Of a DNA stretch of 64,000 nt, positions 5,911 to 63,408 are shown one piece after another; position 1 is the stretch's first letter; each line of letters starts with the position of its first letter. The stretch is from Toxoplasma gondii ME49 (Eukaryota; Apicomplexa; Conoidasida; Eucoccidiorida; Sarcocystidae), in NCBI RefSeq assembly GCF_000006565.2, contig NC_031467.1, forward strand, positions 1,412,448 to 1,476,447. The letters run 5' to 3'. The position numbers and the translations under genes are program-made. The notes below the pieces were generated by a model. That model was not told where the DNA came from. It ran no database searches and saw nothing but the letters and a program-made list of their open reading frames with translations.

Positions 5911-6145
5911 ACCGTTCCATGTTGACGGTCTGAGAGAATAAGATACGTGCTGCAACAGGACGCTGAACCAGAGATTGACAAAAAATGAATCTCGAAGCAG
6001 GGGAGCGAGTTTCGAATAGCATGTCTGTGTTTCCTGGCACGCTGGTAGTTAATGGCATTTCCCAGTTTGAAACGTCGCAGGTGTGCATTGGCGCCTTACG
6101 ACCCCATGGTGGTGTGACATGGTGCTTCGGCTTTGCTTCAGCTTA
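5911..6145. repeat. 5' flank of relic B, shared with the 5' flank of relic D
   Basis: No gene. By eye it aligns with about 11910-12135 and ends in the shared string 'gtgcttcggctt' / 'gcgcttcggctt' (6122 and 12120). Directly after this the homology jumps, without spacer, from the region upstream of the PI4K gene to the end of PI4K exon 7. This marks a deletion of about 8.4 kb in the left-hand copy. Confidence 0.6.
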
Positions 6146-6720
6146 CATCCGATGTAGGTGTAGAAGAACGCAGTCATTCTGGTCACCCGACCACACTGCC
6201 GTCCCGCCTGCTGTCTCTGTGCGAGTCATTTGAATTGGACGCATGCAGCGCCATCTGCACTCGCTTCGTTCCGTCTCTATCCCAGTGTGCTTTCCCTGTT
6301 CATCTTTGAAGTCGCGGCGGAAGGTCGTGTCGTCTGCAGGCGCTACCTAGGACTAGGTGTATCAATCTCGCTGCCCTTCTTTCAACCTGTTGAAGTGAAT
6401 GTGTGCACGTGGACACAAGAAGCGTAGTGCCCGGATAGCTGCGCTTGCGGGTGTTTCCTTCTCTCCATTTTCTCCCTCTCATGTTCAACTGGTTGTCTTT
6501 CAGGCGTCTTGGTGAAGGGCGGAGACGACTTGCGACAGGAGCTGCTGGCGTCTCAACTCGTACGACAGTTCAAGGCAATCTTCGACGAGGCGCGTCTTCC
6601 TCTGTGGCTCCGGCCCTACGAAATCCTCGTTACTGGGTCGAACTCAGGTATGCAAGTCGTCGGCATTCGCTGCATGTGCGAGGCAGGTGTTGGCACGTTG
6701 TCTCAGGCTCTCTTTAAGGT
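6146..6720 (+). pseudogene. Duplicated fragment of the PI 4-kinase gene (end of exon 7, intron, exon 8, start of next intron)
   Basis: This segment is nearly identical to 20561-21132. It has the last bases of exon 7, the whole following intron, exon 8 with its splice sites (6504-6647), and about 70 bases of the next intron. Exon 8 encodes the kinase segment [14 protein letters not shown] through [11 protein letters not shown] without a stop. From about 6251 to 6720 I find only two substitutions; the first 100 bases are more diverged and include a 3-base indel. No other PI4K exons accompany it, so it cannot make a kinase. It has the same strand as the real gene and sits between ROPK relics B and C. 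Confidence 0.93.
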
Positions 6721-7385
6721 CAGGCGCGTGTTCCATGTAGGCTGAGACGGTCCTTGTAACATAACGTACGTGAATATATTTGCGCGTGTACTTGTAGACT
6801 TGTCGCGCAATTCAGCGTGTATCCCTTCTAGAACGGTCGCTAAAAAATAGACGAAACTCTCGTCGTTTACGTGTTTGCAGCAGAGCATAATTATCACTGT
6901 GCTGTTGACTTCCCATGTACATCGTGCTTCCTTGAAAGGGGGAAATCCACGTACGTCTGCTATGCATGAAGTGCATCGACGCTCTATGCTTTCAACACTT
7001 ACCTGCGCAAATGTTACTCAAATTCGAAACCACGGGCATGCAGGCGAAAGAGGACCGAGGTAGTGCATTATGAGAATGTGCTATGCAGACATTTCGGTCT
7101 TCAGCATAATCACCAACACCAGACCACACACAATTGCAAAACAGTCGCAAACAGCATGTGAGTATACAAACCGCAGGCTCTGCATCCGGCCGCGTGCACA
7201 GCCTCTCTATACGCCTGTAAACTGATCTAACCTTCAGTATCGCCTCATGCAGCAAATACATTTCAACAGTGGATCCAAACAGAAACGAGACACGAACTTC
7301 GTTTGCTTCAGCAAAGAAACGCCAATAAATTCAGGTGCTGTGGTGGCCTCTCTTTGGGTGCCCGACATTGCGCACCTTCAGTGCC
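6721..7385. repeat. Diverged continuation and 3' flank of relic C, shared with relic E
   Basis: No gene. From 6721 to about 6850 the sequence still resembles intron 8 of PI4K (both contain 'atatttgcgcgtg'), but identity drops sharply. About 6960-7120 resembles 25950-26100, the 3' flank of ROPK relic E: both have 'atgctttcaacac' followed by 'ctcaaattcga'. So the left unit jumps from PI4K intron to the flank of the next ROPK copy. Confidence 0.55.
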
Positions 7386-13776: not shown

Positions 13777-23802
<10,026 letters not shown>

Positions 23803-27700: not shown

Positions 27701-30636
27701 GACATGGATATCATAAAACACTCTTGCGGTCTGCTGACCTGCATCTTGCGAGAACACCTGCTCACCCCCCTTCCCGAAAAAAGAACGACTGCCAACGCAG
27801 GGTTCGAAGACCCGTTTCACATAGACCGCCCGGTCACTTCAGGTGGTCCATTAAACATTGGCGCGACCTCAAAATAGGAATATTTCCCCAAAATGTATTT
27901 CCAGCTGAACAAAGTGCGTACAACAATTTCGGCGTTACCTAAAAACATGCTGCCACTATTCTCTTGGGAATAATAGGATGATGCATCCACGGAGACAAAA
28001 CGGCACGTCTCGGGATGTAGACAAATAGTTCAACCCGGAACGAAGCCCTCGGAATCTACAGAGCATCTGTATACAATTGGCCTATTCCTTTTCTCCTGAA
28101 AGAAAGTTGAGCCTCGTTAGAGAAAAACAATTGGGAGAGGATTACCATTGCGGCGGGAAAAAAGCACCGTTTCCTGCCCACATTGGACTCGCCTGCACAG
28201 AAGACGGAGACACGCTGAACTTTGGCGGAAAGGATAAAAACACACCGAAGACTGTAGATTTCGCCGACTCCTTCTTCATGAAAACATTTGGTGACGTCTA
28301 GTTTTAATTTTTCAACCAGCTTCCTTCAAAGAGTCTGCCGTTGCCATGAGGCGTCTGACACTTATAGGGCGTTCTCGATGGATAGGGGTGAGGGGCGTTC
28401 CAGGACTGAATAATTAAACTTACTTGGCTGGCGCTCGGGGCGGCTCCGGTATCGCCCTGTCGTAGCTCGGAGCAGCACATTGCATTCCGTGGACTGTAAT
28501 GGGCTAGGCCCGTCCCTAGTGGGTGGCTCCACAGCTCAATTTCTGATCAGCGGCTTGTGCTTGCGCGGCCGCTATCTTTCTATGACGCATTTTTACAAGG
28601 TTTCTTGTCAGGAGCTAGTTTGCCATTTTCTAGCCTGTAGATATTTCAGTATTGTGATATGTCATGGTTTTGTATTGTTTAAAACGGTGATCCGTCATTG
28701 TAGCATTCAGAGCTGTATGAATTCTTGTAGGAGGCGTGTCTTATGTCCACCAATAGATAGATCCAGTGCTGCCACTGCTACAGACGACTGGTGATCTTCC
28801 ATAAGTATCTAAGTACTGCCTAGTAGCTTGCAGCATTCACGACAAGACAGACTCCAGTGTCGTTAGATGGCTGGTATGTTAAAAGCCAGTGATACATCAG
28901 AAATCGGTTATTGCGGAGGAGGAGCGCCACTGAATACGCATCGCTTTTTCAACGAACTAACAACAGGATTGATTAGTACCGTCGTTGCTTTTGATTTTTC
29001 TTGTTTCTAGCCTTCTAGGTGCTCATTCATAGATGTCATTCATACATTAGCAGCCCACCTGAACGTATGGAGAAAACGTTTCAGCAACCTCCAACAGGTA
29101 AAAGGGTTGTATTGCAGCATTTGACATCAAGACTATTTCACATTTGCTGTTATAGACATTATATATGTATTGCTCTAGTGTGTACCCAAAGCGAGAGAAA
29201 TCTGAAAGCTATCGCATTCAAAAGTCTTCTGTCGGCTGTTGGCGTTATTAGTGAGCCGCTTCGGAGGAAGGAGCGGAGATTGACGGAAGGGAAAGGATAG
29301 GGCAATGAAATGTCCATCCCAGTTTGTCTCTGTTGACGTCTGTCGTCTCGCGACTGATTTGCAGTTTTCGGTCATTGACAGCATGAGAGAAAGAGAAGTA
29401 CTTTCTCCTATGTAACTGGTGTCTTTTCAAGACGCAGTGTCTGAGTAGCATGATGGGCTAAACTGCTGGCGATCCCGGTTGGTGTTGCACCCGCCTGACC
29501 CAGCCAACTGTCCTGACCCGGTAGTGTCAACTCACATCCGAGAGCAGTTTTTAGTTCTGTCTTCGTCAGGTGAATGTTTTTGAAGACCGCTGCCTTACTG
29601 CTGGTATAAAACGCCTTAGTCAACCGCCTTCAACAAGCATGGATTTTCATGAGGATGCGCATCCCGGAATGACACGACATTTTGCAGCAACTGTTCACAT
29701 GTGTTTCTCTGGCAAAGGTGCACGACAATCCTCCCCGAATTCTCGTTAGGCGGCATCAGAACTTCAAAATGGAAAGCTGTATCCGAGAGCGGAACGACTG
29801 TGTTCCTGCCGTGCGCGTCGGTGACAGTAGTGCCCTAAACGTAGGATGTGCAGTACCTGTAGATCGACTTGAAAAAAACATTTTTTAAGTGTGCACTCCG
29901 TTCCACATGATGGCGCTGATGCCGCTCTGTTGACCCGTGATCGAGATACAGCAGAAAAGGCACGTTCCTGCCCGTTACGAGAGGCACAGAGAAAGCCTAC
30001 CCAGCGAAGAATTCTGCTTCATCTGTCATCGAGAGAATTGAATCATTTTTCAGAGAGTTCTTTTGTCCATGGCGACACTGAATTGGTTCTTCACATGCGG
30101 AAACAGAGAATGACTGGAGAAAAGAGGGAGGCTGGATGAATCTATTTCTGCTCCCTCTACATTTCTTGGCAGGATTTGGCTACCCTTTCCCTATATTTTT
30201 GTTTACTTTCCATCTTTTGTTGTGCCCCTTCAATGAACTAACGAAAGAACAACGAAGAAGGGGCGCCTTCCACTCCTCCCTCCCTTCCCCCTCCACTCGG
30301 AGTTCGCTTTTTCCCTCGCAATTTCGTGATTCCTTCCTTTATTCTTTTCACAACCTTTGGAAGGAAAAACCCCTTTGTGATTTCACAGGGAACCTGCTAG
30401 CAACGCATGTGATTTAAAATTGGGAATTTGTTTGCTTTCGCATGCATATATATATATATACACAAATATGTGTACATCAAGCATATTTATACGTCCACAT
30501 ATTTATACACCAGCGGACAAATACGATTTTTGCTTTGATATGTGTTATATATATATATATATATCCCCTCCATGTAAAGGACTAGCAGGTTATACGTTGT
30601 CCCTGTTCATACGTAACCAAACAAAAAGTCAAAATA
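27701..30636. other. Gene-poor region with AT microsatellites
   Basis: No gene can be supported. Open frames are short, start and end without splice-consistent neighbours, and show no recognised domain (for example 28077-28301, ending FFMKTFGDV). AT repeats occur at 30445-30460 and 30545-30564. Confidence 0.5.
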
Positions 30637-51319: not shown

Positions 51320-54300
51320 CTAGGGATCTGAAGGGCGAGGGTGTATCCGGAGATGTTCACTAGGGGCAGTGGCTGACGCCGACGCCGGGTCCGACGGCGC
51401 CGTGGTCGGTGGTAATCGATGGTGGATTGAAGGCTCAGTGCCAGATGCCACAGGAGGTCCGATAGTGACGATACCTTCCTCGCTCCCTGGAGGGTTGGTG
51501 GGCGACGTGTGCAGCGCAGATGGAGCTTCACGGATGGGCCGCTTCTTGAGCGGCAGCGACAGATATCGAGTCAGCTCACGCATAGCAGCAGACGTTGCGG
51601 GGTGTGCCAGGGGAGGAGGGGCGGTCAATCGAGAAACCTCCTGAGGGGAGGCCGAGCCCTGAGACAGCGTCGGGTCTTGAGGCGGCCCTCGGCCCTCCGT
51701 TGACGTCGACGACTGGGGCCCAAGCGGAGAGACAAGAGTCGGGGGCGATGGCAGGGATGCAGCGGATTGAGCTGATAAATACGGAAGGAGCCGTGCTTTT
51801 TTGGAGGGGGGTGCCTCGATCCCGCCAGAGGTACCTTTCGTTTCGGAGGGGGCTGGGCTGCGGTGGAGAGTGCTGGAGCGAACTGGTTCTCGACGTGCTG
51901 GTACCTGTTCGCCTGAAGCCTGTGGCGCGCGTTTGACTGTTGTTGAAGAAGACGCAGTCACTTGTTCTGATCGGCGGTCTCTCTGTCGCTGAGCCAGTTG
52001 TCTGGTGAGAGTCTCAGGACCTCGGGCGGGCGCAAGGCCAGCAGCCTTGACCAGCGGGAACTCCCCCACATGTGTTAGCCAAAGAGACCTAGGCCACGTC
52101 CTAGGTGCGCCTCTTGAGCCGCTTTCGCCTGGGTACGCGCCAGTGTCCTGGAACAGATGTTTCTGTTTTGCTTTCCTTTTACCCATCGTAGGTGGGTGAG
52201 ATTGCACCGCTGACAGAGCAAACTCCAAGATGAACCGGTATGACACGAGGTCGACGGAACTAAGCTAGCATATCCTTCGTAAGTATCGTGCCCCATGCGA
52301 CTGCCAAAGATGCTGCTTCTCCCTGCTCAATGGACACACAAGTAACGTTTCACGTCTACACGCTGACACAACGCAGTGGCCATGGCACGGCTACAGCTGA
52401 AACCCTTCGTCGCATAAAAAACCACGTTACAGGGTTGAGCTCAACTCCGCCGAGGTTCTTACCAGATAATGCAGCGGCCTGGTGCCAGCGAGAAGTTGTG
52501 TGTTGCCGAAAGCCATAGAAATCCCAAGATCCAACCCTGTCCACGGCGGTAGCACAGTCTTACTCGCTGATTCGAAATCAGGCGGCGGTTCTGTCTCAGG
52601 GCCTGACGAAGAGGAGAGCAGGCTGTGGAGTTCCTGTTCCAGGATAAGCGCTTGAGATTCGAGTTCTTGTACCTGTGCTTGACGCCGTGAGAAGAAGCGA
52701 TGATAGTTGCCTCTGTCCTGTTGTTTCCAATGCAGCTGCGTGGAAGCGGCTGGTGATCTATCATTTTCACGAATCATGCGATGGGCAAGGTGCTGGGCAA
52801 TGTATACGTCCTCTCCAGTGCACCATACGTCCCGTATCAGCTGGGCTTCTCTCCGTAAGCTGTCGATGGCGAGATGCGCGAACGTTACATGAGCGTCCCC
52901 AAGAGCCTCTGTAGGTGGCCCTCACACCGTCAACAACGCACAAAAACAGACCTGAAGCAGCAATTCACGGTTTCACAAAGATGCAACTGTTATTGGTACT
53001 CTCTACAGGGATATCCTGTTGCCTCCCCCCTCTCAAAAACGCTTGAAGCTTTGCATGGAGTTCAGGTAAGCAGGTACGTCTGTGGCGTGCTCGCATGCAC
53101 GTCGACGCTGATAAACTCTACGAAACCTAGACTCGGATATATTTGAACCTCTTTACAGACGGTGTTACAAAGGAGGCACGCCGACGTCGCTCAACTGTGA
53201 GGGGCTTCGACGTCCAGTGTCACGGCCAGATTGACCGGTCTTCGTCAGCACAAAGCTGAAACATGCCGTTGAGAGCGCCGAACTCACCGCGTGGGGTTCC
53301 TGCTGCCTGTGCAACTGGTGCTTGACCAGGAGATCCCGATTCCAGTGTAGCTGTTTCCTGCGCGGTTCGTAGCGAAATTCCTGCTGCTTCAGCATTCCGC
53401 TCTAGCTCGTTGGCCATGATGTTCAAGTTTTCAGCATCCTGACAACGCATACGCCCTCGATGCCTGTACTTGCTTCGCGCCAGTTGTAACCACTGACGGA
53501 CTGTCTCTACACTTGGAGATCTGTTATTCAGGCGATACATGCGTAGCGCAATGTTTCTGTGTAAGAAACTCTCCATGTTTCCCCATCTGTACAGAAGCGC
53601 TCGAGCTTCTTGCCTCATCCTCTCAATGGCAAGTTGCACGTATGTCACAGCGCCCCTTTGTGGCAGCAGAATAGTGCTACCAAGCACTGTTCCGCTCAGA
53701 GAGCCTATCTGTGCAGCGCTTTCAGGAGCACCGCTCTCTGATGGTCCAGCTGAGGAAGTAATCGTCATGCTTTCGTCTGCTGTTCCCTGTTTGTAGTATT
53801 TTAGGCCACGAATGACTGAAAATACACAACATCATGCAGTGCCCAAAACCTGCACGGACACGCAACTGCGCCAGATCCCCACAATTATCGGAATTAGTGG
53901 CTTGACGAACGCTGATCCCTATGCGAATAAGTTATTTCTTCTGGTGCCTGGGTATTGGATCGACTGTTCAGCATCCCCGACCCCTAGAACGGAGTGAACA
54001 CACCCATGCACCGGATTGTCAAAGAATTAGCGCAACGAGCTACACGAGACTCATATTCAAGAATTAGTGCCAACTGCGAAGTCGTACTGCCGGTGGGACT
54101 CATGAGTATAGTCGCACTGGCGTCTTCTTTCTCCGTGGGAGCGGAAGCAAGCGCACCTGGACGACCTGCCGGCCTCATTAATGCGGCAACTTGTTGAGCT
54201 TCTCCCGCCCCGACGGGAGTGCCTTCCTCAACGTCCTCCCAAATTTCGGCGTCTGAGGCAATTCGTCTATCCCATGCATTTGCCGTGGCCTCAAGTTCTG

Positions 54301-56054
54301 CTGCCTTCTCCAGCCGTTGCGTCACTCTCTCGTTATACCTCGTTCTGGCCGCTTGTCGCCATTCACCCACGAAGCGATCAGGCACATTTCGATTGGGAGT
54401 CCGCACCATGCGATCCGCAACGTGTTGTTCAATGTACTCCTCCCTACTGGTCCAGATTTCTCTGAGCTCCTTCGACTGCCTTCTTAGCTCCGCAATTCCG
54501 ATCATGACACAAGACTTTTTGGTCAATACTGGTGCACTGACGCTTGCCGTATCTGGACCACAGGCAGCAGTGCGCACAACCAACAACCGCTAACGCTTGC
54601 TTATCCTGATTTTGACAGACACATTTACTAATGGAAACTTGATGACATCTACGTCGCTTGGAGCTCCCCATTGGCACTACCTTTCTCTTTTGGATATGGC
54701 TCGCTTGCTCCTGCCTTCAAACGAGCCTCTCCATGAACATGCCAAAATCTTTCAAACTCACACGCAGATAGCGTCGCATGGATATTCAATCCCAAATTGT
54801 CACTACTACACAAATGGGCGCGACTGGGGAAGACGGCTCATTCTTGTGTAGGAGGCGGTTTCGAGCTCACCCGGTGAGCCTGCGTCGGCGCCTGTTCTGG
54901 AGGGCTGATCACGCGTTCCGGCTTGCGGCGAGCTGTCTCCGCTGGAGCTTGGGAGGTGCACCCCAGCTGCCGCCAACCTCTGCTTTACTTCTTCCGCCAT
55001 ATCTTCCAGTTTTGCGGCCTCTCTCAGCCGCACAGATGACCGCTCTTGAAACCTCTTTTGCGCACGCTCCACCCATCCCTGCAGTCGTGACCACTGAACA
55101 GGACCCGACTGACTGACGATGAGACGCCCGACGCTTCGCGCCACGTAATTGTCCTCACTCCCCCATTCCTCTCGAAGCGTCTTCGCATCGCTCCTCAGCT
55201 TGCCAAGCGCAAGCTGTCCATATGTCACCTCTCCACGTCCCTCCAATAAAACGGTACGAGCAAGGCCTTCTCCCCCCGGTGCAGAGCTTCTGGAGCCAGA
55301 GTCCTTCCTCCGCCTGCATGCGCCTGCAGATCGTCTTCGTCGAGTGCCTGAAAACACAGGAACAAAGCCTGTCAACGAAGCCATCGTGCCGTCCCTTTGT
55401 GCTATCAGACCAACGCCTGTTCAATGACATACGGTTTCGTCTGTCAGCGAAGAGGTCTGCTATCTTTGGGCTGGTGTACTTCACTTGCGATGCGGTGCCT
55501 TTATGCTCGAATGGGGGATCCGCATCGCGGACTTAGCTGCCGCTTGAGCCGTGATAACGCCATCAAGTGGTGTGAAAAACGCCTACGCCAAGTCCGACAA
55601 TACTCAGTGCCATGACTCATTCAACTGCCTGTTTGGAATAAGACATTCACAGCTCACTGGGATCAGCCGCTCCAGGTGTGGCTCCGCGCCCGCCTGGAGG
55701 AGCTGCTGCTGCCGACGCCGCAGGCTCTTCTTGAGTTCCAGAGGTGTCAATTGCCGAACGTGCGCTGAGCGCAAGCAATGCTTGTGCCGCCTCTAGTTCT
55801 GCCTCACTAACGGGGAGCGGTTGACCGGTGAGGTCCTTCTTGTCCAAACCCTTATCTCCCGGAACACTAGCAGCACAAGCGCCAGGATATGAGACAGTAT
55901 TTTGTAGCAAAATCAACGTTTGAGCCCACAGGTTTCGGGAGAGAATCCAAGCTATGCAGATCCAGCCGGGGCAGGGGCGACCGCAAATTACTTGCTCCAC
56001 TGAGCAGCTGATTGCTGCGAGGGCTGTCCTTAAGAGAGCAAGCCGTGTCACCAT
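51320..56054 (-). CDS. Modular secreted protein, paralogue 1 (unrecognised family)
   Basis: Six exons on the minus strand: 56054-55658, 55347-54871, 54552-54157, 53779-53288, 52908-52564 and 52209-51320. Every intron is phase 1 and the sum is 2,997 nt (998 aa). Start: ATG in context ccaaATGG, shared with the paralogue. Residues 1-18 (MVTRLALLRTALAAISCS) look like a signal peptide. Exons 2 to 5 each hold one diverged helical module: VTYGQLALGKLRSDA (exon 2), MIGIAELRRQSKEL (exon 3), VTYVQLAIERMRQEA (exon 4), VTFAHLAIDSLRREA (exon 5). Each is followed by a Trp or Leu, a conserved Arg-Met/Leu/Val position, a second Trp region, A-R-x-R/K-Y/F, and a helical LE-x-x-A stretch. Exon 6 is Pro/Ser-rich with MGKRKAKQKHL, PPSKKARL and PLKKRP, which resemble nuclear localisation signals. 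I do not recognise the family. Exon 4's acceptor (53780) is the least certain junction. Confidence 0.82.
51498..51966. repeat. Near-identical tract shared with 58772-59240
   Basis: 469 bases of exon 6 match the paralogue at offset 7,274 with about four substitutions. Three of them cluster near 51709-51720. Sequence on both sides is much more diverged, so the tract is out of line with the age of the duplication and suggests gene conversion. Confidence 0.9.
55451..55842. repeat. Near-identical tract shared with 62805-63196
   Basis: 392 bases match at offset 7,354 with three substitutions. The tract covers about 185 bases of exon 1 and about 207 bases of the following intron. Its edges do not follow the exon edges, so selection on protein sequence cannot explain it. 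Flanks are strongly diverged. Confidence 0.92.
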
Positions 56055-58584
56055 TTGGCTGTATCGAAGTACCTGTCAAACTCCATAACATCTGATCTGA
56101 ATGACACGCAAGCCGGCAACGCAAAGCGTGATACTGGTGGTTGGGAGCTGTGAGGGAAAGCAGACCAAACGAAAGCACCGGGAAGAACACTGCGTTCTCC
56201 GGAGAAGCGAGGCAAGTGAGAAGGGTTATCTGCCTGCGAAACAGAACATGTTGTTCTTCTCCTCTCGTGATGATACGGCACATAATAGACAGTTACGTCA
56301 GGGGATCACTCGCAATCGTCCTCGGGTGTATGGACAGTCTTGTCTGAGCGGGAGGGAAAGTGTGAAAGTATATATGACAAGCGCTGGTGGGCCAGCATTG
56401 TCGTATGAAGCCGGTCACTATGGTCACCAATCCTAGAAATACCTGCACGGTCAACTCGATAGCGATGCGGTGATGGGAGGGACGGGCGGCCACGCTGTCT
56501 CCGACCGGAGACATGTAGATCACTCAGTTCGTAGAAGCAACGGAGGAAGGGCCTTGAAGAGGAAGAGGTCGGATTTATTCTCCATTTTGTCCTAGCGTCC
56601 TGCCACGGAAAACTAGTCAAGCAGATTCGTTCGTAACAGCATTCGCATAAGCTATTGTTTACCTTGGTACTCTACCCCCCGCCCCTCAGAGACGCACCCA
56701 CAAGAAGGAGGAATTTATGTCAGAAATCGACCAGTACGAGAACAGCTTCAGGAGATCGTCGCATAGCGGCTGCATGGAATCTGCTTTCGGCGCAAGCGCT
56801 GTAGGTGGGTAGTGTGCTTTTACCGTGCTTTGTGTTAGCATGGTTTCGAGAACTCCCATTATATCTACGAGAATATTTCAGGCACTCCTTGTCTTTTATC
56901 GGTGTGCACTGAATCTAAATTCATGTTATAATTTCGGTTATCGAGTTCTGCCCATAGGCATTTTGCTGCACCTGCACACTTACGGCGTACAGAAGTGGAT
57001 GAAGCAGATGGGAAGGCAGCTTACGATACAAGGATGTCTCATACCTCTGTGCTGGCTATGTTGACTGCGCCGCTCTATGAAAATCGCTACACTTCACAAC
57101 CCCCCCGGCATGAACGATTTGCTGCCAGCAACTCGGCGCGTGATGCATTGACGTCCGTGCGGTTGTGTCGACTTGCCGTAAATGTCCGCAGCGTGAGTGC
57201 TGGAGACGCTGCTCAGGCAAGGCCTTACATCAGATTTGTGGGTGTGAAGAACTCCGAGTTACTGAATCCATCCCAACCACTCCACTGCTTCACCAAACCC
57301 AGGGTGAGCGCTGAAGGGACGGCAGAAATGCGTCAACCAGCATGACACGGGACACTAAGAGTTACACTAACCGACACCGTATTTGATGGGCGTGAAGCTG
57401 GTTTGTCTCAACCACTTATCCCAGGAAGTTGCTCATTCTAGGTGAGCAGCCACGCTTACAGGTATCGATTAATGCCAGGTCGGCCAGGTGGCGGTAGTAG
57501 AGATCGATGCACAGCCGTACACAAGATGTTGCGCAGGTTTCTGAAGCGTGTCTGTGTATTTCAGGTCACATCAATGGAGGACTGTATGAATGGAATTTTC
57601 TTTATTGAGGACGTGCTGTTCTTGGTGTCAGTAGTATCATTAGTTCTATAAACTTTCTTCGTACATGTGTCTCTATGGAACCGTATGCAGGAGATACGGC
57701 GTTGGTGCGATAAGCGAGACAACCGGAATTCCACACGTGTGATGCTACCGATTGGAATCTTTCGTAGACGTTTGTGTTGGTCTAAAGTGTTGGCCGGTGC
57801 ACGTTCCATGCATCTGACTGAGGAGCAAGACGCGTAGGAACAGCTCCTTCCTTCAGTGTGCCAAACCCAAATGGTAAAAGCTCTCGTCGTGGGGACCACT
57901 GAGGTGCAGTCTCTGGTCCAGTAACGGGTATACCTCAGCTCCAGAAACCAGTTCGAATCTCACAAATATTTCCACTGACGGAGCCTCCCTCTCATTCCGA
58001 CTCCGTGACACACTACTAAACGCGGCACGCGTCGAAGACCAGATTCCAATAACACCTGGTTCCCCGTCGCCAGCTTTTAGGGCTGGCCACGCCCGGGTGA
58101 TAAGTAGATGAGCGTGTTGGCTTGCAACACAGAGGCACCTGACACTGCACAAAGGGATCAAACTCAGAAGGATGCTCATATATCACACATGCTCGCATAT
58201 AACGGCCAGACAGACATACATAAATATCGGAACTTCACCCTCTAAACGTCACACCACGAGGACATGCGTGTGTGTAAAATGTGTATTTCGCCACCCACTG
58301 TCACGTGGCACGGCGGCCGCTACCTTCTGTTTGTTAGTTGTGTGGGGGTGTCGAACCTAGCCGTCTGTCGAGGTTGTGCTTCCAGGCAGTCTCATGCACC
58401 GATGCCGGATAAAACTGGATAGAGACAAGACTAACCGCGTAAGGATTTCTGCAGGCGCAGCATTGTAGGCACACACATCTCCTGTGTCGAACTGGAAACC
58501 AGAAAATACAACCATAAAATCGCCACAACCCGGCACCCTCCCCCCCAATAAGGATGGCCCTGTTGTGATGCACGACACGAGACA
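56055..58584. other. Intergenic between the two modular genes
   Basis: No gene supported. 56055-56520 is the upstream region of paralogue 1 and resembles 63409-63900 upstream of paralogue 2 (shared 'acgctgtctccga' near 56490 and 63881). It probably holds the promoter. The last part, about 58480-58584, is the 3' flank of paralogue 2. Confidence 0.55.
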
Positions 58585-61500
58585 TCACCGGCGTTCTGGA
58601 GGGCGAGGTTGTAAAAGACGACCACCACCAGAAGCAGTCGCTGATGTCGAGCCTGGCTCTGACGGCGTCGTGTAGGGTAGCGACTCATGCCGCAGTGGAG
58701 CCTCAGTGCCCGACGTCGCAAGAGGTCGGATGGAGACGAGACCGAGCCCCTGCTCGCTCCGAGGCGGGCTAGTGGGCGACGTGTGCAGCGCAGATGGAGC
58801 TTCACGGATGGGCCGCTTCTTGAGCGGCAGCGACAGATATCGAGTCAGCTCACGCATAGCAGCAGACGTTGCGGGGTGTGCCAGGGGAGGAGGGGCGGTC
58901 AATCGAGAAACCTCCTGAGGGGAGGCCGAGCCCTGAGACAGCGTCGGGTCTTGAGGCGGCCCTCGGCCCTCCGCTGCCGTCGGCGACTGGGGCCCAAGCG
59001 GAGAGACAAGAGTCGGGGGCGATGGCAGGGATGCAGCGGATTGAGCTGATAAATAAGGAAGGAGCCGTGCTTTTTTGGAGGGGGGTGCCTCGATCCCGCC
59101 AGAGGTACCTTTCGTTTCGGAGGGGGCTGGGCTGCGGTGGAGAGTGCTGGAGCGAACTGGTTCTCGACGTGCTGGTACCTGTTCGCCTGAAGCCTGTGGC
59201 GCGCGTTTGACTGTTGTTGAAGAAGACGCAGTCACTTGTTGTGATCGGCAGTCACGCTTTTTCTGGGCCTTTTGAGTCGTGGAAGGCTCAAGACGTCGAC
59301 TGGATGCGACCTCACCGCCGTCGCCGCTGCTAGGCGCGTCCAGGCGGAATGCGGCGACAGGTGTTAGCCAAAGTGACCTAGGCACCCGGAGTCCTCCGCC
59401 GCTCGAGGAACCTTCACCAGGTTGCTCGGAGCTGCTCGGGGCCAGGTGTTTCCGTTTCTCTTTTCTTTTGCCCGACACACCCGGGCTGGACTGTTCCGCT
59501 AACAGAACCACAGCCAAAAGGAATCAAGACGTCACACGGTCCACTATTGTCAGCCGGTACAACTAACTTGTGCGATCTTGACATAGGCAGTTAATTTACA
59601 GCCTCAGCGAACTGGCACGTTTATGCGAGCATGAATGGCCAGAAATCAACGACACGGTGCTGCTGTCCTGTCCTGGCAATGCGGGAAGCGGTTCGTCGCC
59701 CCGTTGCCGTCACAGATCTGACCCGAAGTCGTCGAGGCCCGCCACCACAGCGATAGTCCCACACCATGTGGACGTGCGATGGCAGACCCGAAAGCTACAT
59801 GGTCCGTGGCACACTCATACACGGCTAATTTGAAACGTGCCGAGAGCGGCGGCGTAGACTCACCAGTCTCTTCGGAAACCGGCGGTGGGCTTGCCTCATG
59901 GGCGCGTGCTGACGAGAGGAGGCTGTGAAGTTCCTGTTCCAGAGCCAACGCCTGAGCTTCTAGTTGCTCGGCCAGCTTCCGCTTTTCGGAACTCCGTCGC
60001 TCATACCGGTTTCCTGCTTCAGTTTTCCACACCCTCAGCGTGCTTTCGGACGGCGAAGGTTGTCCGGTACGCACTACACGATGTGCCACCTGGATCGCTA
60101 CGTACATCTTTTTTCCACAGCCCCATAGCGCTCGTATCTTCTCTGCCCTTCTCCGTAAGCTGGCAATGGCGATGTGTGCGAACGTGGCGTCGCCTTCCCC
60201 AGGTATCCGTATGCGTGGTCCTGACAACGTCACGAACACACAGACATCGACTTCAGCAGCCGCTGGCCCTGGGTCCCACAGAAATATGCCTGTTAGTTGC
60301 AAGGCCTGGCGCCCACACGAGTGGGCTTTTGGATAGACCTGAGGTGTGCTGTTACTGCTGTGGCGAACCAACACAATACAGCTGATATACTGTGTGATAA
60401 CAAGGCTAAATTGTGTTCGACGACGCCACTAAGGACTATGTAAAACTGGGCATAAACAAGCTCTTGGTCTCTGAATGATCGCGACGTCGTGAGACCATGC
60501 CAGACAGAATGGAGCTGTGATGCCGTAAAGTCGGCAACTCTGAAGGAGGGCACCTGCCATCCCAGGTCATACACTCTATCCCGTGAAATGATGCGATGGC
60601 TAGAAAAATTCGGGGAACTCACCGCCTGCCATTCCTTCTGCTTGTGCGGCTTGCGAAGGACCAGCAGATTCCGAAGGCGGAGCAGTTGGCTCCTGGGATG
60701 TCCGTATCAACACTCCTGCCGCTGCCGCCTCCTTCTCTAGATTGTCGGCAGCGCGTCTCAAATCCGCGGCCTCCTGGAGGCTGACACATCCGCGATACGA
60801 GAACCTGCGTGCCGCTAACGTCATCCATCGCCTTGTTGTATCTGGAGGCGGATTTCTATTATTCTCTTGGAGCATGCGGCACGCAAGGTTGTCCTGTACG
60901 AACGCAGCGGCGCTGCGATACTTCTTCTCCCAAGCGTCAGCCTCTTGCCTCATCTTGTCGATGGCAAGTTGCACATAGGTGGTTGCCTCATGCCCTGGCA
61001 CATCAATATTGCTGCCGAAGAATGTACCACGGAGTGAGCTCATCTGCGCTTCGACTTGAGGCACACTGCTCTCCAATAGCTCAGGTGGCACGGCACTGGC
61101 CGCCCCTTCGTCTCTTGGTTCCCGTTTCCGGCGGCCACGACCACGCGCCACTGAAGTCACAAACCACCATGCCGTGCCCGATAACTATTTAAGAAGTGCT
61201 GATGTAATGAATGCATACCTCTTTCAGCGAATAAGCTCCGCTGACACAAGAACCTGCGCTACCGATTTTCTTCATCTCTCATGCGGCCCATTCGATACCG
61301 CGTTCAGCATACCCGATACACATAACGTAGCGAACCACTGGTTCCCCGGATTATCGAATCATCCGTGTTAGTGGGGGTCCTGTGACACTTTCGCAAAGAT
61401 AGATAGCCATTTTCAAGGCGCTGGCATCGGGCGGCCTCGTTCCCTCCCCCCCCCCCCCACAGACGGAAACCTTCTCAAGAGAAAACCAGACGCACCTGGA

Positions 61501-63408
61501 CGCCCCGCCGTAGGGTCTGGCCCTGCGGCTTGTTTAATTGCTTTCTTGCGGGAGGGGGTGCCTTCGACGGGACGAAGGGGTGTCACGGCGCCTGTAGCAA
61601 TCTGTCTCTCCCATTCAGCTGCCAGAGCCTCAAGTTTCTCCGCTTTTTGTTGCCAAAGCGGACTACTGTTATAATAGCGTGCTCTTGCTTGGGTTAACCA
61701 TTGGTCTATTCGACGATCTGTGGGGTCGACGTTTGTGGACTGCGCCAGACGAACAGCCGCTTGTTGCACAATGAAGGACGTTTTGTCACTCAGTTTTTCC
61801 CTTAACTCAGCAGCTTCCTTTTTTAGCTTGCTGAGGCCCACCTGCAGATAGGTGCCGTTGCTACTCCCATGAGTCGAGGTATCGGACGCAGCAGCTGCGG
61901 ACGGCACGACACACCAGAGTCGATACTCTTGTCACGCAAATGAATTCTTCAAGCGCCTACACAGATACGCTTCCATTGCTACTAAACGATGGCTGATCAT
62001 CTGTGGGACTCAGCTGCTCAACGAACACCCTAGGGAGCAGGAACAGATGTCGCTGCTTCGGTCATGGGATGGGCCTCTACGTGGAAAAATCTGTAAAACC
62101 ACTCGATTTCTTTCTTTGACAGCGGTGACAAGAAACTCCACCGTTATGGTGTCACTGCTATACAACTGTGCCAGGACCGGCACGCTGTGGTCGTCTGATC
62201 AAGGATGTGATTGGGAGATTACCTGGTGTCAGTCCATCTCCATCTTTTCTGGAAGCTCGCTCACTCGCTTCGGATCGCGACGCGCTGCTTCCCCCAGAGC
62301 CTGAGACGTCCACCCCAGCTGCCTCCAGCATCGCTGCTACTCTGTTCGCCAGCGCCTCCAGTTCTGCGGCCTGTCTAAGTTGCGCAGGCGAGCGTATCTC
62401 ATACTTGTGTCTAGCTTCAATAGCCATGCGCGTTATCTGTGACCGTGTAACGGCAGCACATCTCTTCAAGACGCGACGCCCAACAGCCATTTTGACGTAC
62501 ACATCCTTACAACCCCATTCCTCTTGAAGCGTCTTCGCATCCCTCCTCAGCTTCTCAATCGCAAGCTGCCCAAACGTCACCTCTCCACGGCCCTCCAATG
62601 AAACCGTACGGGCAAGGCCTAGTCCTCCTGGCGCAGAGCTTTTGACTCCGGAGTCCTTCACCGGTTTGCGTCTGGCTACAGGTTGACTTGATTGCGTGCC
62701 TGGTAAAAACCAGAGAAAAACGTGTCAACGAAGTCAATGCGGGGTTCACGTGTGCGATGCAACCAACAAGTGTCCAGTGCTATGCGGTTATCAGCTGTCC
62801 GCGGAGAGGTCTGCTATCTTTGGGCTGGTGTACTTCACTTGCGATGCGGTGCCTTTATGCTCGAATGGGGGATCCGCATCGCGGACTCAGCTGCCGCTTG
62901 AGCCGTGATAACGCCATCAAGTGGTGTGAAAAACGCCTACGCCAAGTCCGACAATACTCAGTGCCATGACTCATTCAACTGCCTGTTTGGAATAAGACAT
63001 TCACAGCTCACTGGGATCAGCCGCTCCAGGTGTGGCTCCGCGTCCGCCTGGAGGAGCTGCTGCTGCCGACGCCGCAGGCTCTTCTTGAGTTCCAGAGGTG
63101 TCAATTGCCGAACGCGCGCTGAGCGCAAGCAATGCTTGTGCCGCCTCTAGTTCTGCCTCACTAACGGGGAGCGGTTGACCGGTGAGGTCCTTCTTGGCCG
63201 AATCATCATGTCCTGGAGCACGAGCAGCAAATGCCCTGATACACAGTTCGCCATGAAAGAGGAGTGTTGAGGAAGGTGCCCACAGGTTGCGGAAGATATC
63301 CAGAGCTACGCGGATCCGGCAGAGGTTGGAGTGGTTCCAAATGTTTTCCTCCACCGAGCAGCTGATTGCTGCGACGGCTATGCTTACAAGCGCATGCCAT
63401 GTCACCAT
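58585..63408 (-). CDS. Modular secreted protein, paralogue 2 (unrecognised family)
   Basis: Six exons: 63408-63012, 62699-62223, 61894-61496, 61150-60623, 60220-59864 and 59498-58585; all introns phase 1, 3,072 nt (1,023 aa). It starts MVTWHALVSIAVAAISCS (signal-peptide-like) and exon 1 continues LTGQPLPVSEAELEAAQALL. Modules: VTFGQLAIEKLRRDAKTL (exon 2, residues 133-291), GTYLQVGLSKLKKEAAEL (exon 3, 292-424), TTYVQLAIDKMRQEADA (exon 4, 425-600), ATFAHIAIASLRRRAEKI (exon 5, 601-719). Exon 6 (720-1023) has GKRKEKRKHL, SLWLTPVAAF, PPSKKARL and PLKKRP. Exon 4 and 6 starts and all donors (gtgagt, gtgcgt, gtaatc) are clear. Exons 1 and 2 have exactly the same lengths as in paralogue 1 despite sequence divergence, which argues for purifying selection on both genes. 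A dibasic RRLEP in exon 6 is absent from paralogue 1. Confidence 0.85.
58772..59240. repeat. Near-identical tract shared with 51498-51966
   Basis: Partner of the exon 6 tract in paralogue 1. It covers the segment encoding PPSKKARL through the MRELTRYLSLPLKKRP block. Confidence 0.9.
61447..61458. repeat. Poly-C tract
   Basis: A run of 12 C within intron 3 of paralogue 2, directly downstream of the exon 3 donor on the minus strand. It is prone to sequencing length error but lies outside coding sequence. Confidence 0.9.
62805..63196. repeat. Near-identical tract shared with 55451-55842
   Basis: Partner of the exon 1/intron 1 tract in paralogue 1, with three substitutions in 392 bases. Confidence 0.92.

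Follow-up and report, generated by a model that had tools for sequence, protein, structure and literature searches.

A tandem pair of KRUF genes

In this study we analysed a stretch of 64,000 nucleotides from Toxoplasma gondii ME49 (NC_031467.1, positions 1,412,448 to 1,476,447; hereafter the window), which sits on a contig of 1,859,933 bases within a 65.3-Mb assembly. Its minus strand carries two tandem genes of six exons each, which an original prediction made from the letters alone had described as modular genes with an unrecognised domain. Both genes almost certainly belong to the KRUF family, named in 2012 for 'Lysine-Arginine rich Unidentified Function' (PMC3310773). As genes they are ordinary, already deposited members: gene 1 is 97% identical to a KRUF protein of T. 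gondii VAND (P0001, 61% of the query covered), and gene 2 is 95% identical to a partial KRUF protein of T. gondii ARI (P0005) over 87% of residues 148-740, numbered on a 1,009-codon model. The same residues of gene 2 match NCLIV_002020 (P0007) with an E value of 6.2e-100 and 40% identity over 90%. In T. gondii, Hammondia hammondi and Neospora caninum together, protein searches found seven distinct relatives. Of these, six are deposited under the KRUF name; the seventh, NCLIV_002020, is hypothetical according to one source and KRUF according to another, and it is listed as NcKRUF8 in PMC3310773.

Two complete six-exon genes had been predicted, with 998 and 1,023 codons. Both genes and the second length stood, while gene 1 has 1,010 codons in our model, a figure that depends on a splice choice made here. 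For gene 2 an alternative exon-2 donor gives 1,009 codons; the donor giving 1,023 was chosen according to P0005. All ten introns in the models are of phase 1, as had been proposed, and have GT..AG ends; the internal exons are symmetric 1-1, also as proposed. Since the second gene is a copy of the other, the independent units are the five introns of one gene. Six of the ten exon junctions match deposited proteins letter for letter: P0001 contains junctions 1-3 of gene 1 and P0005 junctions 3-5 of gene 2, both deposits being gene predictions and not RNA reads. Junction 2 of gene 2 is present in P0005 with one substitution, as judged by eye, and so has no letter-for-letter match; homology alone supports junction 1 of gene 2 and junctions 4-5 of gene 1. 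The deposited P0001 continues into intron 4 of gene 1, and the C-termini of P0001 and of the H. hammondi model P0003 seem to run into an intron, so that part of the public annotation of the KRUF family is probably truncated.

The sections of PMC3310773 that treat the family report three members in N. caninum, seven in T. gondii ME49 and up to twenty in GT1, relate the name to K/R-rich motifs suggesting nuclear localisation, and record no domain from InterProScan. A later count is 14, of which 12 showed strong expression in tachyzoites, with levels in merozoites at least 8-fold lower (PMC4340605). With the described family the window pair shares homology (including the listed NCLIV_002020), deposited names, multiple copies, K/R-rich motifs and the lack of an assigned domain, and nothing sets the two genes apart; the four-module layout, the module fold and the core-confined divergence described below are absent from those sections. 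The open-access literature on KRUF, searched with both names and gene numbers and with subscription papers and supplements outside its scope, held no passage on any of the three in the text available. Tandem secretory families are treated generally in PMC4729833, whose main text does not contain the word KRUF, and in the available parts of PMC5376300, PMC4177681, PMC11801735 and PMC11354806 the family appears only in expression or stability notes. One member, TGME49_251170, is tabulated in PMC12054087 among gene variants whose proteins had co-precipitated with sera of immune mice; that list holds 727 proteins, a quarter of them classed as intracellular, so the entry lends weak support.

Domain searches added no name. 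Pfam gave no model at cut-off for 10 open reading frames (ORFs) or six proteins; for 38 modules the lowest E value among the best 25 of 37 families was 0.0016, and NCBIfam gave no match for four proteins. The helicase-associated domain HA (PF03457) was rejected: its best score was 18.5 bits (P0005) against a curated cut-off of 28.4, one of the 38 modules reached an E value of 0.015, and the genes' own genome gave no match at 0.1. WXG100 (PF06013) matched one of 38 modules at 0.011 and was absent from the ORF and protein scan lists. Even so, 'unrecognised' was too strong a word for genes whose relatives carry the name of a family described in 2012. The original prediction would have been refuted by a profile search placing the modules in a well-described family, and on this count it is only half refuted: the family is named, but the KRUF literature, in the parts available, gives it no domain, fold or function, nor was any Pfam cut-off reached.

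Four modules older than the gene copies

Exons 2 to 5 of each gene encode one diverged copy each of a helical module of about 90 residues. In BLASTP comparisons of module exons at different positions within one gene all 12 pairs of a 12-exon set, which used the shorter exon 2 of gene 2, gave E values of 6e-17 to 2e-6; judged by their sequences, the copies are alike beyond chance. The AlphaFold model of module 3 of gene 1 has three helices (residues 6-25, 28-42 and 50-91 of 96) with a predicted local distance difference test score (pLDDT) of 95.9 and a predicted template modelling score of 0.80. It suggests two shorter helices, perhaps forming one kinked arm, packed on one long helix. Together with the module hidden Markov model (HMM) it upholds the proposal of one helical module per exon. 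In the model of a relative four three-helix modules appear, joined by linkers with pLDDT below 50 (mean of the whole model only 55.9); the linkers are hence predicted to be disordered.

Comparison of the module with PDB structures gave no significant match. The first structural rows by rank were WXG100/Esx hairpins (EsxA, EsxB), which have a similar helical outline; these rows are generic. An alignment of 38 modules contains no invariant residue, and its three near-invariant positions are all Ala or Leu. On this evidence they resemble binding units more than parts of an enzyme.

The pair is not an isolated case. A genome profile built from the eight window modules, with counts covering the stretches fetched, found 57 module cores (49 distinct) arranged in 14 four-module units and two single-module relics. 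Thirteen units are complete and the fourth module of the fourteenth lies just past the fetched stretch; the count includes copies on small contigs that may be partly redundant. Units K07, K08 and K15 (contigs C45 and C194) have identical cores and between-module stretches 99-100% identical, module 4 of K07 being matched over 83 codons only; they may be recent copies or redundant assembly. The two single modules, at C14:5346218-5346481 (grouping with position 2) and C4:356147-356404 (position 1), are apparent relics of larger genes. Contig C4 also holds a KRUF-like first exon (C4:356853-357218) and a tail that contains stops (C4:352485-353321).

In a tree of the 49 distinct modules positions 3 and 4 each form a single group (supports 99/92 and 100/99); so do positions 1 and 2, apart from one relic inside each. 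The grouping by position was kept when two Hammondia proteins and one Neospora protein were added, and all four Neospora modules fell into their own positional groups. This one protein is our only Neospora sequence, the size of the Neospora family being taken from the KRUF passages of PMC3310773. Modules group by position rather than by gene, and all four are present in the Neospora protein; exons were therefore duplicated within the gene before the gene itself was copied, which is the order originally predicted. The four-module gene thus predates the split of T. gondii and N. caninum, and whole-gene copying came later.

Table 1. Features of the two KRUF genes (positions in the window)
Feature	Position	Strand	Basis or remark
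Gene 1, six-exon KRUF gene	51320..56054	-	1,010 codons
Gene 1 exons	55658-56054, 54871-55347, 54157-54552, 53288-53815, 52564-52908, 51320-52209	-	
Gene 1 exon 1, hydrophobic signal-peptide-like leader and Ala/Pro-rich stretch	55658..56054	-	Kyte-Doolittle
Gene 1 module 1 core (exon 2)	54962..55231	-	module HMM
Gene 1 module 2 core (exon 3)	54248..54517	-	module HMM
Gene 1 module 3 core (exon 4)	53379..53651	-	module HMM, AlphaFold model
Gene 1 module 4 core (exon 5)	52619..52891	-	module HMM
Gene 1 exon 6, Pro/Ser-rich tail with basic nuclear-signal-like motifs	51320..52209	-	recur in paralogues
Gene 2, six-exon KRUF gene	58585..63408	-	1,023 codons
Gene 2 exons	63012-63408, 62223-62699, 61496-61894, 60623-61150, 59864-60220, 58585-59498	-	
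Gene 2 exon 1, hydrophobic signal-peptide-like leader	63012..63408	-	Kyte-Doolittle
Gene 2 module 1 core (exon 2)	62314..62583	-	module HMM
Gene 2 module 2 core (exon 3)	61590..61856	-	module HMM
Gene 2 module 3 core (exon 4)	60714..60983	-	module HMM
Gene 2 module 4 core (exon 5)	59919..60188	-	module HMM
Gene 2 exon 6, Pro/Ser-rich tail with basic nuclear-signal-like motifs	58585..59498	-	
Homogenised block, exon 6, 478 bp	gene 1 51498..51975, partner gene 2 58772..59249	-	99.0% identical
Homogenised block, intron 1 and end of exon 1, 392 bp	gene 1 55451..55842, partner gene 2 62805..63196	-	99.2% identical

Core-confined divergence among close copies in two arrays

Thirteen gene pairs were compared, five over the full length of the unit. 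Some close paralogues are about 98% identical in linkers, introns and tails but only 58-93% in the module cores, where silent sites have diverged as well. The clearest case is K15 against K16 (both on C45): identity is 98.4% over 4,638 columns outside the cores and 92.8, 81.0, 58.1 and 83.0% in the cores of modules 1-4 (Fisher p 6e-109, from rounded counts and non-independent sites), with core synonymous divergence (dS) of 0.11, 0.33, 1.00 and 0.37. On the large contig C11, K02 and K03 are 97-99% identical between modules, 74% in module 3 and 93% in modules 1 and 2. The confinement of divergence to the cores is thus shown for close copies of two arrays. Not every core has diverged, those of module 4 being identical in K06 and K16. 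Upstream of module 1 the pairs K02/K03, K02/K04 and K06/K16 are unalike, so the frame is not uniformly homogenised.

A profile along the module, pooled from 22 non-independent module-pair comparisons of six genes, gives nucleotide differences of 0-2% at positions -28 to -9, 19-28% at 17-31 and 47-71, and 1-3% beyond 97. If the short helices form one kinked arm on the long helix, the two variable stretches would adjoin. At amino-acid-identical codons, silent changes number 158 of 1,119 in core positions 7-76, 0 of 262 upstream (-28 to -14) and 6 of 474 downstream (97-121), with 22 of 401 and 17 of 364 in the transition zones (-13 to 6 and 77-96).

Wherever two non-identical cores share an exact stretch of at least 30 nt, they belong to one array and occupy the same module position (27 of 27 pairs). 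We also looked for switches of ancestry in all seven three-gene module sets, where 16 of 21 label pairs had enough sites. Module 2 of K06/K07/K16 switches within the core from 36:0 to 16:37 sites, and module 2 of K02/K03/K04 from 15:0 to 0:6 near the core end; in both cases none of 2,000 permutations was as extreme. The shared stretches and the switches fit exchange between same-position modules of related genes. The spectrum of substitutions is broad and gives no hint of a biased mutator.

In the window pair the two blocks of about 99% identity lie outside the module cores, which are 52-63% identical. Elsewhere in the window, away from the KRUF genes, a direct repeat (6145-6733 and 20560-21145) is 97.6% identical over 589 aligned bases. 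There is also a tandem duplication of 95 bases (528-622 and 622-716, 98.9%), and a U1 spliceosomal RNA gene at 28416-28575 on the plus strand (RF00003, 74 bits) is the sole Rfam match above cut-off in the window.

A possible role for the modules

What might such a protein do? It begins with a hydrophobic, signal-peptide-like start and carries four modules, predicted to have three helices each, on predicted disordered linkers, and it ends in a tail that has basic motifs. In the likeliest mechanism, gene conversion between tandem copies would keep start, linkers, introns and tail alike, and selection would maintain the differences among module cores. The array might then offer a variety of module surfaces to a partner that itself varies; this would most plausibly be a host molecule and might lie in the nucleus. 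We put the probability of this whole chain, with KRUF as a multivalent binding scaffold whose modules are kept diverse, at about 0.4.

The two ends of the protein bear on where it would act. The 12-residue Kyte-Doolittle maximum is 1.74 from residue 5 in gene 1 and 2.44 from residue 6 in gene 2, and maxima of 1.74 to 2.74 occur in eight of nine first exons found, the ninth repeating another's start. Windows of eight residues with at least five K or R begin at 724-725 in gene 1 and at 426-431, 623, 675 and 728-731 in gene 2. Leader and basic tail motifs both recur in paralogues, and it may be that the former serves secretion and the latter nuclear import. GRA16 and GRA24 are exported dense granule effectors of T. 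gondii, and not all such effectors carry the RRL motif (TEXEL). KRUF resembles them in layout only (hydrophobic leader, long disordered stretches, nuclear-signal-like basic motifs); unlike them it has four folded modules, and it has no TEXEL-like RRL near the N-terminus in either window gene.

Several observations weigh against the scaffold reading. The leader was called from hydropathy alone, the Neospora model P0007 has none, and the units on C14, C45, C194 and C1102 yielded no first exon. The RRL motif is absent from gene 1, and in gene 2 it lies at residue 787, in the tail and not at the N-terminus. No localisation or partner of KRUF appeared in any source or search made, and the proteins are reported, in the portion of PMC5725899 concerned, to be poorly translated. 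Clear switches of ancestry occur in only two of the seven triplets. Module 3 of K02/K03/K04 is weak (31:12 then 7:17; 19 of 2,000 permutations), that of K06/K07/K16 weaker still (35 and 107 of 2,000 for two label pairs), and the remaining triplets are at chance or have too few sites. Genes of the C4 array are diverged throughout, introns included (57-63%). In the window pair the linker-plus-intron stretches between modules have diverged to the same degree as the cores (52-55% identical). A third, weaker block of 108 bp (88.9%, gene 1 55161-55268) extends into module 1; the frame of the pair is therefore homogenised mainly at both ends, short of the full close-copy pattern. Finally, by a hand tally of 50 core comparisons, nine of them zero, nonsynonymous divergence (dN) is below dS in 38 of the 41 non-zero ones and above it in the other three, K02/K03 module 1, K02/K04 module 4 and K03/K04 module 3. 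As dN is mostly below dS, simple positive selection is unsupported; rather, old differences persist in the cores while much of the surroundings has been made alike.

It is possible, though doubtful, that KRUF proteins are imported into the parasite's own nucleus by their basic tails, where basic helical modules would bind chromatin or RNA and the diversity would follow a changing internal target. The K/R-rich motifs behind the family name (KRUF passages of PMC3310773), the recurrence of the tail motifs and the mean net charge of +4.2 over the 57 cores, each taken with a few flanking residues, speak for such a role. It sits less well with hydrophobic leaders in eight first exons, with a module charge that varies from -2 to +14, and with the failure of any nucleic-acid-binding family to reach its cut-off, HA being the best. 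Unlikely in our view is a neutral escape, where the cores diverged first and are now too unlike for conversion, so that no selection for diversity is needed. Gene conversion requires sequence similarity, and long exact sharing only between same-position cores of one array agrees with this. However, introns and linkers are freer and would be expected to escape first, yet they are about 98% identical in close copies, and the pattern repeats in several modules of two arrays. It is highly improbable that mis-joined tandem repeats created the mosaic cores: C45, C194 and C1102 are small contigs, the cores of K07, K08 and K15 are identical and the C4 stretch read contains 5,371 N, but the contrast is also present in K02/K03 on C11, a large contig (97-99% in linker plus intron, 74% in module 3), and the cores read open and fit the module profile, unlike random mis-joins.

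Tandem arrays with gene conversion are described for the SRS genes of Toxoplasma and Neospora (SRS19, in the relevant part of PMC3310773); unlike these, close KRUF copies confine their divergence to module cores within an otherwise homogenised gene. A bolder idea, which we consider quite improbable, is that the KRUF arrays form a system for diversifying a protein, although antigenic variation is not known from this parasite. In such a system a core-focused process, either segmental exchange between same positions or local hypermutation followed by exchange, would diversify cores of about 90 codons while the rest is homogenised, which would give strain-specific repertoires of binding surfaces. 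What is new for the family is a defined module with a confident fold prediction, the duplication of modules before that of genes, and the sharp divergence of cores in close copies. This pattern points to where the functional surface probably lies, and together these results turn a family of 'unidentified function' into testable units, its modules.

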